Shown here in pieces: positions 2,782 to 64,000 of a stretch of DNA of 64,000 nucleotides. Positions within the stretch are counted from its first letter, which is position 1, and each line of letters starts with the position of its first letter. The DNA is from Gemmatimonadota bacterium (lineage in GTDB: Bacteria; Gemmatimonadota; Gemmatimonadetes; Longimicrobiales; Gaopeijiaceae). The stretch lies in assembly GCA_027623325.1 (NCBI GenBank), contig JAQBXY010000004.1:124001-188000 (forward strand), read 5' to 3'. The notes under the pieces were generated by a model that saw only the letters and a list, made by a program, of their open reading frames with translations, had not been told where the DNA came from and did not search any database. The position numbers and the translations under genes were made by a program.

Positions 2782-3995
2782 CGGAGGTCTCCCAGCTCAG
2801 TCGTCAGCACCGTCATAGCGGCTGCGACGCCCCCTGAATTGTGCGGCATGCCCACCATCTTCATCCCCATTTCGACTCCAGCGAGGGTGCCCAAGAGCGA
2901 GAGCGGGCTCAGGTCTCCGAGGTGTCCGATTCGGAACACCTTCCCCTTATACTCGCCGAGTCCAGTACCGAGTGACATGTCGAAGCGCTCGAGAATGAGC
3001 TCACGAAGTGCGTCCGCGTCGTGGCCATCGGGCACGAGCACCGCGGTGGCGGCATCACTCGACTCCCGGGAATCCAACGCGAAGACCTCGAGCCCCCATG
3101 CGATGACCGCAGCCCGCGTCGCTCGGGCGTATCGAGCATGCCGCTCAAAGACGTTCTTCAGCCCTTCTTCGCGGAGCATAAGGAACGCCTCCTCGAGTCC
3201 GTACATCAGGTGGGTGGCCGGTGTGTACGGAAACGCACCCTGCGCGTTGGAAGAGACGTGATCATCCCAGTCCCAGTACGACCGCGGCAGTTTCGCGTGT
3301 TCACGCGCCGCCATCGCCCGCTTCCCCACTGCGAGCAGGGCGAGGCCGGGCGGGAGCATCAGCCCCTTTTGAGAACCGGCCACCGTAACGTCGATGCCCC
3401 ATTCGTCATGGCGAAAGTCGGTGACCGCCAGGGAGGACACCGAGTCGACGAAGAGCAAAGCAGAGTGCCCCGACGATCGGATCGCCGCCCCGATCGATGC
3501 GACGTCGCTGGTGACACCTGTCGACGTCTCGTTGTGCACGACCAGCACGGCCTTGATCGCTCGGCCCTCGTCACCTGCCAATACATCGGTCACCGCCTGG
3601 GCGGTCAGCCCACGGCGCGCGTCCCACGACTCGAGGCGGACCACCAGCCCGAACCTTCCAGCGACACGGGCCCAGGACCGCGCGAAGACTCCTTGAGCGA
3701 ACACGAGCACCTCATCGCCCGGCGAGAGGGTGTTCGCGAGCGCAGCCTCCCATCCACCGCTACCGGACGCTGGGTACAGGAACACCGTCTGTTCCGTACC
3801 GAAGATCCAGCGCATTTCCACGAGAAGCCGATGAGTGAGAGCCGCGAACTCCGGACCTCGATGATCGATGGTCGGCTTCCCCATGGCACGGAGCACCCGA
3901 TCGGGCGTGTTCGTCGGGCCAGGCAGCTGGAGGAAGTGGCGTCCGCTGTGATGGGGCAAAGTCAGCTTCCTTCGGATGCGACGGGGGGCGCCCAA
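2778..3995 (-). CDS. serine-glyoxylate / alanine-glyoxylate aminotransferase (class V)
   Basis: PLP-dependent class V aminotransferase of 405 residues that probably transfers an amino group to glyoxylate. The N-terminus has G-R-H-F-L-Q-L-P-G-P-T-N and I-D-H-R-G-P-E-F, the core has V-V-H-N-E-T-S-T-G-V-T, and the PLP lysine lies in A-G-S-Q-K-G-L-M-L-P-P-G. This set is characteristic of the SgaA/AGXT branch. It is the first gene of the leftward operon with dctPQM, with an ATGA overlap. A divergent promoter region of 65 bases separates it from the FAD-linked dehydrogenase at 4061. A role in converting imported or oxidised C2/C3 acids to glycine or serine is inferred from this context; the exact amino donor is not determinable. 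Confidence 0.9.
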   Translation of the reverse strand: MGAPRRIRRKLTLPHHSGRHFLQLPGPTNTPDRVLRAMGKPTIDHRGPEFAALTHRLLVEMRWIFGTEQTVFLYPASGSGGWEAALANTLSPGDEVLVFAQGVFARSWARVAGRFGLVVRLESWDARRGLTAQAVTDVLAGDEGRAIKAVLVVHNETSTGVTSDVASIGAAIRSSGHSALLFVDSVSSLAVTDFRHDEWGIDVTVAGSQKGLMLPPGLALLAVGKRAMAAREHAKLPRSYWDWDDHVSSNAQGAFPYTPATHLMYGLEEAFLMLREEGLKNVFERHARYARATRAAVIAWGLEVFALDSRESSDAATAVLVPDGHDADALRELILERFDMSLGTGLGEYKGKVFRIGHLGDLSPLSLLGTLAGVEMGMKMVGMPHNSGGVAAAMTVLTTELGDLR

Positions 3996-60724: not shown

Positions 60725-61310
60725 CTGAACTATGGAGTGGAGATGCCGACACACGCGTACGCGATCATGAAGGAGATGGAGGCCCGCACCTCCGCCCAGG
60801 AGTTTTCTTTTCCCCGACCTGGACCTTGGATAGTGGCGGGCTGGTGGGCCTTCGATTCGGCGGTGCCCACTTCGCTGGCCATCGTCTCAGAGTCTGGTCT
60901 CAGCTTCAATGACCGAACGATGCACGACTTGGTGGAGTGATCGGCTTGGTTCGAGAAGGCGTTTCCCGGAGTTGTTTGTGCGGGTCCCCCTGGACGAAGG
61001 AACCCGTGAGGTGGTGAAGGCGAACGTGGGCATTCGGCTAGTGTTCTGATGCTTCCGGTGGGGGCGCATCCTCCGTCCCCATCCAGGCGCAGGGGTCGTG
61101 ACCCTGGAGCCGAGCCCTGTCGCGTATCATGTCCGATTCCCCCAGATTTGCGAGACGTCTTTTCGCGTATAACCAGTCATGTGCAATTGAGCTTCGCGTG
61201 AGAGTTGGGGGGCGTTCGTGGCCTCCAGGTCCAGGAATAGCCGCGGATCAGCGGGAGGTCGGCGGGCGAGGCTCGTTGACCCTGCTTGGTCGGACGAGCA
61301 AATTCGGACC
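60725..61310. other. gene-poor region before the toxin-antitoxin block
   Basis: About 590 bases without a supported gene. Short frames exist: a 67-codon frame at 60737-60940 and, overlapping it, a 46-codon protein-like frame (about 60908-61048, with V-R-V-P-L-D-E-G-T-R-E-V-V-K), which look like remnants rather than genes. Near the end lies GCGTATAAC (61165-61173) directly followed by GTCATGTGCAATTGAG (61176-61191). Both recur, in similar form, in the inverted-repeat element at 61977-62137. Confidence 0.4.
61165..61191. repeat. short boundary motif upstream of the MntA-HepT module
   Basis: GCGTATAAC at 61165-61173 is identical to 61983-61991, and GTCATGTGCAATTGAG at 61176-61191 matches 13 of 16 positions of GTTATCTGCAACTGAG in the right arm of the 61977-62137 element. 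So both ends of that element are recognisable here in compressed form. The MntA-HepT pair lies between the two copies, as expected for a cassette flanked by direct repeats. Confidence 0.5.
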
Positions 61311-61601
61311 ATGGTCCAGATCAACAAGCCCCTTCTCGCAGAACTATGCCGGAAGCACGACGTTCGCGTGCTGAAGCTGTTCGGCTCGGCCGCGAGAGGC
61401 GAAGATACTCCCGCATCTGACATCGACCTCTTGGTCGAGTTTGAGGGTCGGAAGAGCCTGTTTGACCTCATTGGTCTGGAATTGGAGCTCACAGAGTTCC
61501 TCGGGCGAAGGGTGGACCTCCTAACCGAACCGTCGATTAGTCCCTATCTGCGGGACCGGATTCTCGCCTCGGCTTCGGTGATTTATGAGCGAACTGGATG
61601 A
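61311..61601 (+). CDS. mntA: MntA-type nucleotidyltransferase antitoxin
   Basis: A 96-residue minimal nucleotidyltransferase, antitoxin of the type VII MntA-HepT system, in which it adds AMP groups to the toxin to silence it. The G-S-x10-D-x-D site is clear: F-G-S-A-A-R-G-E-D-T-P-A-S-D-I-D-L-L-V. The third acid follows in R-V-D-L-L-T. A longer form starting at GTG 61218 is possible, but its extra 31 residues are arginine-rich and atypical of the family. The stop overlaps the start of hepT by 17 bases. Confidence 0.85.
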   Translation: MVQINKPLLAELCRKHDVRVLKLFGSAARGEDTPASDIDLLVEFEGRKSLFDLIGLELELTEFLGRRVDLLTEPSISPYLRDRILASASVIYERTG

Positions 61602-61941
61602 GTCGGTCTACGTTCGGCACATGCTGGACGCAATCGCCCGCCTTCGACGGCATGTCCAGGGTGTAGACCAACCCGAGTTCGAATCGAGCGAGATCATCCA
61701 GGACGCGGTGATCCGTCAACTTGAGATCCTCGGAGAGGCGGCGGGTCGTGTCTCGCGTGAGACATGCATCCTCTTCGATGAGATTCCGTGGCAGCGCGTC
61801 ACGGGCCTCCGGCATCGCCTTATCCACGACTACCTCGGGGTCGACGTGCAGTTGGTTTGGCAGGTCGTCACCGTCGAGCTCCCGAAGATCGTCGGCCCAA
61901 TTGAGACCATGCTGGAGGAACTAGCCGGATCTTCCGACTGA
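61585..61941 (+). CDS. hepT: HepT-like HEPN ribonuclease toxin
   Basis: A 118-residue four-helix HEPN protein, toxin of the MntA-HepT pair; active members are RNases, often acting on tRNA. The R-x4-6-H motif is seen as R-H-R-L-I-H-D-Y, with the Tyr that is the target of AMPylation in this family, so the toxin appears intact. The start overlaps the end of the antitoxin gene. The stop lies 42 bases before the GCGTATAAC at the left edge of the inverted-repeat element. Confidence 0.87.
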   Translation: MSELDESVYVRHMLDAIARLRRHVQGVDQPEFESSEIIQDAVIRQLEILGEAAGRVSRETCILFDEIPWQRVTGLRHRLIHDYLGVDVQLVWQVVTVELPKIVGPIETMLEELAGSSD

Positions 61942-61976
61942 GCTTAGAAGGACCTTGGTGACCTCTCCCGCACGGC

Positions 61977-62137
61977 TCAACTGCGTATAACAAACGGGTG
62001 CCGCCTTCGCTCGCTCCGGGGGACATGGCCCGATAGTATCTGCCAGATGAGGCGTGCAGGCGAGGACGAACGGAGTCGGAGCTGTTGGCCGCTCCTGGAG
62101 GGCCACGTCGGCACCCTAAAACGTTATCTGCAACTGA
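61977..62137. repeat. 161-bp imperfect inverted repeat, attC-like
   Basis: The left arm (61977-62003) begins TCAACTGCGTATAACAA and contains GGGTGCCG (61996-62003). The right arm (62109-62137) begins CGGCACCC and ends GTTATCTGCAACTGA. GGGTGCCG pairs with CGGCACCC exactly, ATAAC with GTTAT, and the inner parts ACATGGCCC (62023-62031) and GGGCCACGT (62100-62108) also pair with one mismatch. Bulges are asymmetric. Terminal TAAC/GTTA boxes, a long imperfect stem and a position between a TA pair and the next gene resemble integron attC sites, though the outer boxes do not match the GTTRRRY consensus exactly. No integrase is in the window. Confidence 0.5.
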
Positions 62138-62162
62138 GGGCTACGACGATGTGGAGAAGGTT

Positions 62163-62597
62163 TCAGTCGTTGGCGCGAGAGTCTGCGAGGACCCGATTGA
62201 GCCTTAGATCGGGGATGCGCTCGAAATGCCGGAGGTTGCCCGTGACGAGCTCAAGGTCGTGATAGAGGGCGGTGGCCGCGATCTGCAGGTCGGCGTCGGG
62301 GAGGATGTTGCCGCCTTGCTCGAGACGAGCGCGAATCTTGCCGAACACGCGAGCGACCCCTACGTCGTAAGGAAGGGTGGTTACCGCTGGGAGGATGCGC
62401 TCCTCGACATTCTTCAGGTGACGTTCTTGGGCAGAAGAGCGGTAGGCCCCCTTGAAGAGTTCACCGACCGTGACGGCGCTGCTGAACTGGTCTTCTCGAG
62501 GAATCGTCTTAAGCCAATCCAGATACAGCGGAAGGGGACGTGGACGGAGCAACTCCGAAATGGCGTCGGTGTCGAAGAGGTAGGCGACGGCGGTCAA
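62163..62597 (-). CDS. vapC: VapC-type PIN-domain toxin
   Basis: A 144-residue PIN nuclease, RNase toxin of a type II module. Acidic site residues are visible: Asp9 in F-D-T-D-A-I, Glu in V-G-E-L-F-K-G, and Asp pair in I-L-P-D-A-D-L-Q-I-A. C-terminal T-G-N-L-R-H-F is also typical. The ATG overlaps the stop of the antitoxin gene (ATGA at 62594-62597). Oriented opposite to mntA-hepT, and the stop is 25 bases from the inverted-repeat element. Confidence 0.9.
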   Translation of the reverse strand: MTAVAYLFDTDAISELLRPRPLPLYLDWLKTIPREDQFSSAVTVGELFKGAYRSSAQERHLKNVEERILPAVTTLPYDVGVARVFGKIRARLEQGGNILPDADLQIAATALYHDLELVTGNLRHFERIPDLRLNRVLADSRAND

Positions 62598-62872
62598 TCG
62601 AGGGAGGGGCCGCTGCGGCTGCCTACGCGGGACGACGTGTCCAGGACGCGAAGGAGGTCGTCAGAGTCTTCCCAACCACCGGCGAGACTCGCGAGCCCTC
62701 CTTGTGGACCGGCGGACCGCAGACGTTCGAGGGTCTGGAGTTCCTCGGGGCCCACGAGTGCAGCCACGGCCTGGCCGTGACGCGTGATTACCACGGGCTC
62801 GCCGTGTTCGGCAGCACGGATATACTCGCTGAGCTTGGCTTTGACTTCGGCGACGGATCGAACGTGAGACAT
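62594..62872 (-). CDS. Phd/YefM-family antitoxin
   Basis: A 92-residue antitoxin that pairs with the VapC-like toxin. N-terminal V-R-S-V-A-E-V-K-A-K-L-S-E-Y-I and V-V-I-T-R-H-G-Q-A-V-A-A-L-V are the Phd/YefM DNA-binding domain; the C-terminal half should bind the toxin. A GGAGG ribosome site precedes the ATG. Directly upstream are two tandem copies of a 9-base sequence, a probable operator for self-regulation. Toxin gene overlaps the 3' end. Confidence 0.9.
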   Translation of the reverse strand: MSHVRSVAEVKAKLSEYIRAAEHGEPVVITRHGQAVAALVGPEELQTLERLRSAGPQGGLASLAGGWEDSDDLLRVLDTSSRVGSRSGPSLD

Positions 62873-63051: not shown

Positions 63052-63690
63052 ATGACGGGTGACGTAGAACCCGCGCTCGACCGGGATCTGGACACACGCA
63101 TCAATGCGCTGTGCGAGGAGGGTCGTGAATTTTGGCACCGCTTCGATGCGGAGGTGCGTCAGGACGACTGGCACCCGTTCGTGGCCTCCGACTACGACGC
63201 CGTCCGAGCCGCGCTCGAGTCGGTCCGTAAGCCGGGCCGCCGATTTCTTGAGTGGGGCTCGGCCACAGGCGTCATCACGATCATGGCGGACTTGCTCGGC
63301 TTCGATGCCTATGGTATCGAGCTCGACTCCTCCCTTGTCGACGTGGCGCGGGACCTCGCGGCGCGATGGCATTCGAACGCGCAGTTCGCCGCTGGGAGTT
63401 TCATTCCGATGGGATGGGAGTGGAAGCATCCCGAAGGAAACGGTCGCCACGGAACCGTCGGCCGAGGGCCGTCCGGATACCTGGAATTTGGGTGTGCGCT
63501 AGGCGACTTCGATGTCGTATACGGCTTCCCTTGGATGGGGGAGGAGCCGATGATGCTCGACCTGATGCGCACCCATGGCGGCAAAGACGCTCATCTGCTG
63601 CTACACACGCCCCAAGGCGCGACGAGGACGTACCGAGACGGCAAGATCCTAGGTGAACTGATCTCAACCCCAACAGCACGGATCGACTAG
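63052..63690 (+). CDS. class I SAM-dependent methyltransferase-like protein
   Basis: A 212-residue protein with a Rossmann methyltransferase start: F-L-E-W-G-S-A-T-G-V-I-T-I (motif I), then G-I-E-L-D-S-S-L-V-D-V-A (motif II with acidic residue), and later D-F-D-V-V-Y-G-F-P-W (motif IV region). Methyl acceptor unknown. It stands alone between the VapC module and the end of the window with the start at ATG 63052; the open frame upstream runs through low-complexity sequence. The location among TA genes suggests cargo of the accessory region. Confidence 0.75.
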   Translation: MTGDVEPALDRDLDTRINALCEEGREFWHRFDAEVRQDDWHPFVASDYDAVRAALESVRKPGRRFLEWGSATGVITIMADLLGFDAYGIELDSSLVDVARDLAARWHSNAQFAAGSFIPMGWEWKHPEGNGRHGTVGRGPSGYLEFGCALGDFDVVYGFPWMGEEPMMLDLMRTHGGKDAHLLLHTPQGATRTYRDGKILGELISTPTARID

Positions 63691-64000
63691 ACCATGACCG
63701 TTCGTTAAGGACGGCCTCTCCGGCCATGCGCAGATGGTTGAGAGCTCGCTTCGCTTGTTCGGGCTAGACAATGCGCTGCGCCGGGAACTCGTCGAAGGGT
63801 CCCCCGAAGTCCACGCAGTGCCTGGCTACGGTGCGATCCAGATCGGACGACATGAGTTCTGCCACTGGGAGAACGGCGTTGGGGATTCCTGGTCTGGGGA
63901 ACCGGAACGGTTATCTGCAATGCCCCATCAGCTGTTGGCAAGCCCCGGATAGGCTCTCTGCACCTCAGCCCCGCTCCAGCGGCCGCGTCAGACACGTCGG
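63691..64000. other. window end: possible small gene and repeat core
   Basis: About 310 bases without a secure gene. A 72-codon frame at 63734-63952 reads protein-like in its first 55 residues (L-D-N-A-L-R-R-E-L-V-E-G-S-P) but I recognise no family and see no good ribosome site. GTTATCTGCAA at 63910-63920 is identical to 62123-62133, the right end of the attC-like element, so another boundary may lie here. No matching left arm is visible within the window. Confidence 0.35.

Follow-up and report, generated by a model that had tools for sequence, protein, structure and literature searches.

An imperfect inverted repeat stands close behind a toxin-antitoxin gene pair near the right-hand end of the window, i.e., the whole stretch of 64,000 nucleotides analysed here, and raises the question whether it is an integron attC site, some other folded recombination site, or a palindrome that arose by chance. 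A reading made from the sequence alone (the sequence-only reading) had left the choice between "a divergent attC class or a different folded recombination site", a proposal that is supported by the family data below. The element is very probably an attC-like cassette-end recombination site of an integron-like system that is distinct from IntI integrons, with the MntA-HepT toxin-antitoxin pair as one of its cassettes. The family of sites, its structure, the cassette rule, the adjacency of a recombinase, the missing insertion and the missing extrahelical bases are all read directly from the sequence.

The element occupies positions 61985 to 62129 on the forward strand, in the order R''-L''-L'-R'. 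The R'' box GTATAAC (61985-61991) is followed by the spacer AAAC and the L'' arm GGGTGCCG (61996-62003), which pairs completely, with no extrahelical base, with the L' arm CGGCACCC (62109-62116); the spacer TAAAAC then leads to the R' box GTTATCT (62123-62129). Between the L arms, the family alignment places an inner stem made of TGGCCC (62026-62031) and GGGCCA (62100-62105). The extended R'', CTCAACTGCGTATAAC (61976-61991), ends the MntA-HepT cassette, and R' together with the start of the next cassette reads GTTATCTGCAACTGAG (62123-62138). The imperfect repeat with TAAC/GTTA outer boxes, an L stem and a second inner pair was thus as first described, with all coordinates confirmed. No other TAAC...GTTA element with an L stem of at least 8 bp occurs on the forward strand of the 64-kb window, and none of 60 dinucleotide-preserving shuffles contained one; these shuffles and the family copies led to rejection of a chance inverted repeat. 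The folding energy of the bottom strand (z = -1.7) is uninformative taken alone and weak evidence for the element; its belonging to a conserved, covarying family is strong evidence.

Related copies, whose presence elsewhere in the genome the sequence-only reading had made a test of its proposal, were indeed found. A blastn search of the window's own genome returned partial copies on contigs C6 and C34, and GCGTATAAC pointed to more copies, which flank a toxin-antitoxin pair on C38 (C6:1545-1637; C34:83321-83478; C38:83960-84053; C38:81576-81732). With a pattern derived from the copies, 16 matches were obtained in 9 of 196 relatives, and none with the reversed pattern. In the alignment of 17 copies, R, L and inner stems are recognizable, the L stem being 8 bp long and uninterrupted, and two-sided changes occur in 42 cells (16.2 +/- 3.3 in shuffles) and in 12 pairs (8.2 in shuffles). 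The sites fall into two length classes, of about 94 nt and about 145-160 nt, and with a model termed R2 they were detected in at least 34 of the 394 genomes of the class, the majority of which belong to the window's family. A further covariance model (R3), built from 22 copies that did not include those of the window and C6, scored the window site at 84.6 bits (E 4.3e-21) and the C6 copy at 66 bits; since R3 was trained without the window copy, the assignment to the family is not circular. A blastn search of plasmids with the window element as query gave no match. In two genomes, a gene-free gap of only about 70-80 bp separates an ordinary attC from a new-type site (L233:157-432; L164:1545-1837).

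The sites occur in same-strand arrays, mostly spaced 0.5-2.5 kb apart, and usually enclose one or two ORFs that are mostly oriented towards the site. An integron cassette begins with the R' of the preceding site, and in the circular form this R' pairs with the cassette's own R''. Complementarity is therefore expected between the R' of site n and the R'' of site n+1, and is not expected between the two boxes of one site. At five variable positions, R'(n) and R''(n+1) matched perfectly in 25 of 56 adjacent pairs (shuffled mean 1.6, maximum 7 in 5000), while a perfect R'/R'' match within one site was seen in 2 of 88 cases; agreement by position between neighbours amounted to 78% vs 46% after shuffling. 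Arrays of ordinary attC sites, treated in the same way as a control, gave 41 of 50. In many neighbouring pairs, the match reaches 13 nt around a two-base mismatch. The complementarity of R'' and R' across the cassette, together with the covariation of the L stem, would best be explained if selection keeps the site of the circular cassette able to fold. Among 20 cassette proteins that were searched, the cargo includes GNAT, glyoxalase, GrpB and DinB proteins, a ParE toxin and proteins with no Pfam match, and by inspection the first cassettes of two loci (L227, L278) look like toxin-antitoxin pairs.

Applied to the window, the rule delimits a cassette. As the reverse complement of R'' CTCAACTGCGTATAAC is expected at the cassette start, that start should read GTTATACGCAGTTGAG. 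Leaving aside the R' of the element itself, only one position in 64 kb, 61176, matches it at 12 or more of 16 bases, and this position lies a short way upstream of the MntA gene. The sequence found there, GTCATGTGCAATTGAG (61176-61191, forward strand), read as a decayed R', matches the reverse complement of the R'' at 61976-61991 in 12 of 16 positions, and its four differences from the prediction are all transitions. The bases CGCGTATAACCA that precede this start are similar, without statistics, to the attI-like motif of relatives, and CTTTTCGCGTATAACCA (61159-61175, forward strand), directly before the first cassette start, is tentatively taken as an attI-like half on its resemblance, likewise without statistics, to their AAYAACGA|GTTA motif. 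The toxin-antitoxin pair reported just upstream of the element was identified by profiles as an MntA-like nucleotidyltransferase antitoxin (61218-61601, forward strand, with ATG 61311 as the likelier start; PF01909, PF18765; NF047752 at 57 bits, just missing the cut-off of 60) and a HepT-like HEPN toxin (61585-61941, forward strand; PF01934, E 8.5e-23). Judged from its boundaries, this pair is one predicted gene cassette that extends from 61176 to the R'' end at 61991. A second cassette begins at the R' at 62123 and holds, on the reverse strand, a VapC-like PIN toxin ORF (62163-62597; PF01850; NF047863 at 80 bits, not reaching the cut-off of 140); a Phd/YefM-type antitoxin ORF (62594-62872, reverse strand; PF02604, TIGR01552) and a methyltransferase-like ORF (63052-63690, forward strand; NF001790 at a weak 35 bits, no Pfam match) follow. 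Its right-hand site is not intact: an exact repeat of R', GTTATCTGCAA (63910-63920, forward strand), is possibly a remnant of the next site by sequence identity, the family model sees no complete right-hand site near 63910 even with filters off, and an R'' belonging to the second cassette was not detected anywhere in the window, where the closest candidate matches in 10 of 16 positions.

A candidate for the enzyme was revealed by an ORF search on the array contigs, in which a tyrosine recombinase heads the arrays in G050, a single-contig genome, and in G256. Its relatives occur in 44 of 394 genomes, i.e., in 19 among the 34 that have sites and in 25 among the other 360, raw counts that ignore kinship and include some weaker matches to other recombinases; many genomes have the recombinase and no detected sites, and some have sites and no recombinase. 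At eight loci, a family site lies directly downstream of the recombinase gene on the same strand, and in six of these an attI-like junction lies between gene and array, in which 9-11 of 12 positions agree with the reverse-complemented R'' of the first cassette, usually in the context AAYAACGA|GTTANNCGAAA. Many other recombinase contigs stop within about 1 kb downstream of the gene, as expected because assemblies break in arrays. The protein is an IntI-related tyrosine recombinase, and, as judged from its sequence, not a canonical IntI. It scores 204 and 223 bits with the integron integrase model TIGR02249, under the cut-off of 265 and with the match split in two stretches, and 210 and 212 bits with the XerA model (cut-off 220). 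The distance from KGxK to HxLRH is about 66 residues in most members and 107 in IntI, and the 41-residue insertion that contains the attC-reading helix of IntI is absent. The closest solved structure is that of the integron integrase IntI4 (2a3v), matched in two stretches and ranked above XerA. In a tree of 83 proteins, IntI forms one fully supported group, and the recombinases adjoin it at a distance from the two Xer-like proteins of the genome; Xer sequences are thinly sampled in this tree, rec_L310 is placed beside IntI, and the bootstrap is not settled. An N-terminal extension shows a likeness to HARP beneath the Pfam threshold. No relative of the recombinase was detected in a scan of IMG/VR.

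The same layout is found on plasmids of Bacteroidota. Plasmid 1 of Rufibacter tibetensis (NZ_CP012644.1) encodes a tyrosine recombinase of 484 residues (WP_245652382.1) that has no insertion (65 residues), and downstream of it a run of small same-strand genes with six palindromic sites, at least three of which have a perfect L stem of 8-9 bp. Its attI-like junction matches the first site in 7 of 7 positions, and all six junctions pooled match in 36 of 42 positions vs 14 of 42 within sites. Plasmid pls1 of Pontibacter kalidii (NZ_CP111080.1) is laid out as in Rufibacter, with two neighbouring site pairs matching 7 of 7. A Persicobacter plasmid carries a relative of the recombinase and no sites detectable by a simple stem scan, and on a Hymenobacter plasmid the site matches found do not obey the cassette rule; the Hymenobacter volaticus plasmid (L320) carries a split tyrosine recombinase, in two copies about 2.2 kb apart, with no cassette-rule sites by a simple scan. 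Transposases of the IS110 family are located inside both plasmid arrays (NZ_CP012644.1, NZ_CP111080.1) and next to the C38 sites; the loci noted with such transposases in or beside new-site arrays are L316, L319 and L166. Some IS110 relatives target attC sites, and those seen here may, by analogy, target the new sites. At L166 (G000:C38:81576-85500), an AbrB/PIN-type toxin-antitoxin pair lies between two inverted GTTATACGC ends, with IS110-family transposases on both sides.

The window's own genome, a draft of 3.35 Mb in 60 contigs, is the main source of uncertainty for this locus: no recombinase of the array-head type was detected in it at E <= 1e-45, yet it encodes a true integron integrase (C3:1069-2010, 395.6 bits, cut-off 265). 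IntI, which the sequence-only reading had proposed to look for, is present in the genome, but on a contig other than the window's and not near the window array, which looks orphaned. The integrase gene is encoded on the minus strand, close to the end of its contig and next to toxin-antitoxin genes of HigBA type (G000:C3:1-2061, L006), and in relatives IntI and its array run in the same direction, the opposite of class 1 integrons. Given this genome, the sites could represent a divergent attC subtype that is moved in trans by the canonical IntI of the same genomes, the neighbouring recombinase being incidental or a latecomer, and new-type sites do sometimes lie beside ordinary attC (C6, G104:C92). 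However, not one family site was found in 42 sequences (632 kb) of mostly IntI-proximal DNA of the class, in which ordinary attC sites do occur, and the single contig of G050 holds several arrays and the new recombinase with no TIGR02249 match at E <= 1e-60. Moreover, the L stem has no extrahelical base, and IntI1 and VchIntIA no longer recombine attC x attC once such bases have been removed from both partners (PMC2727003), so the new sites should be poor IntI substrates. Mobilization by IntI in trans is thus an unlikely explanation, if the best placed of the alternatives.

A decayed ordinary attC, as a relic of this genome's IntI integron, is far less probable still. A covariance model of 51 aligned attC sites from IntI loci of many lineages (R1), in all 51 of which the extrahelical base of the L box is unpaired, recovered attC sites of the genome itself, two on C56 (48.7 and 49.5 bits) and two on C6 (32.2 and 35.5 bits), so ordinary sites are at hand in the genome. 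The window element does have TAAC/GTTA boxes with the AAC and GTT cores of an attC (GTATAAC/GTTATCT), GTTATCT also serves as R' in an authentic array (L141), and in a ranking of half-sites over 134 kb the window's two GTATAAC 5' half-sites come directly after the attC half-sites. Yet R1 gives it 14.9 bits (E 0.29 over the window), near background, as against 32-50 bits for the genome's own attC and 84.6 bits with the model of its own family, and GGGTGCCG pairs fully with CGGCACCC where an attC would keep a base of L'' extrahelical. The family also has a conserved inner sequence and compensatory changes of its own. Since R1 found the true attC sites and left the element near background, the ordinary attC reading was rejected; the low score is attributable to a different class of site. 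An attC-like 3' half-site, GCGGCACACGGACTTCCGTTAGAT, at 372-395 of the window (17 bits) ranked just under true attC half-sites, and two decayed ordinary attC sites (14.5 and 22 bits) lie elsewhere in the genome without IntI (G000:C8:1661-1760 and 3121-3225, L165).

It is scarcely credible that the element is a MITE or REP-type palindromic repeat standing beside toxin-antitoxin genes by chance, a reading that was rejected. The copies are palindromic, dispersed and several per genome, but the two ends of one MITE copy match each other; in this family the variable bases at an end agree with the end of the next copy, on the far side of the cassette (25/56), and not with those of their own copy (2/88). 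The copies also form same-strand arrays, mostly at intervals of 0.5-2.5 kb that contain small ORFs, the majority of them oriented towards the site. The sequence-only reading had held that missing copies, a missing IntI and an attC covariance score at background would together reduce the element to a chance inverted repeat or a REP-type element. The three apply poorly here, because copies exist, IntI sits on another contig of the genome, and the near-background attC score reflects a different class of site.

For the preferred reading, a cassette-end site of an integron-like system, the following mechanism is proposed. The circular cassette would be closed by pairing of R'' with its own R', and one of its strands would fold into an R-L hairpin, so that the putative substrates are folded single strands. 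The recombinase, which presumably acts on the family sites that adjoin its gene, would carry out strand exchange in R', at its GTT, the partner being an attI-like or another site. As the sites have no extrahelical bases, strand choice would have to depend on the unequal length of the spacers and on the 5' arm, of which about 31 nt are unpaired. Against this reading speak the cassette rule, which holds less often than in ordinary arrays (25/56 vs 41/50), the second cassette, whose right-hand site is not intact, and the window's genome, with no recombinase of this type detected and with IntI and ordinary attC on other contigs.

The system resembles IntI integrons (TIGR02249, attI, attC) in its head tyrosine recombinase, the attI-like junction, same-strand cassettes that end in palindromic R-L sites, the R'/R'' rule and a diverse small cargo including toxin-antitoxin pairs. 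It differs in its recombinase, which has no IntI insertion and stays under the integron-integrase cut-off, and in its sites, which have an L stem with no extrahelical base, a conserved inner sequence, a long unpaired 5' arm and outer complementarity that often extends to about 13 nt. The window array shares with CALINs (attC clusters without an integrase) the absence of an integrase gene nearby, but its sites are not ordinary attC. The catalytic core is similar to that of Xer/XerA, in which the insertion is absent as well; however, the new recombinase is closest to IntI4 (2a3v), has an N-terminal extension and heads cassette arrays. No integrase with the additional domain lies near the array, complementarity between R'(n) and R''(n+1) is evident in the family (25/56) and at the decayed start of the window cassette (12/16), and a head recombinase with an attI-like site is found in relatives and on the Rufibacter plasmid and not in the window's genome. 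Because the defining features of an IntI integron were tested and not found, the system is not classed as one, although it appears integron-like in its working. No published description of such a system was found in text searches of the open literature, though one may exist among preprints or subscription papers.

The I2 helix of IntI has been described as necessary for cassette capture, conferring recombination of single strands, and as reported from no other protein, while the same paper notes that a causal role of I2 in the new activity has no direct proof (eLife 2020, PMC7790495). There is a slightly better than even chance that the window's class and Bacteroidota plasmids harbour a cassette-capturing system with folded single-stranded sites, in which the recombinase never had the I2 helix and the sites never had extrahelical bases, and which would be either the source lineage of IntI or an independent solution. 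If this is true, neither I2 nor extrahelical bases are required for cassette capture, and an integron-like system without the insertion and without the bases that it reads would provide a direct test of the I2 view. Searches that rely on IntI and ordinary attC models would probably miss the system, which carries toxin-antitoxin and other small genes and is found on plasmids, and which would serve as a comparator for the origin of integrons.
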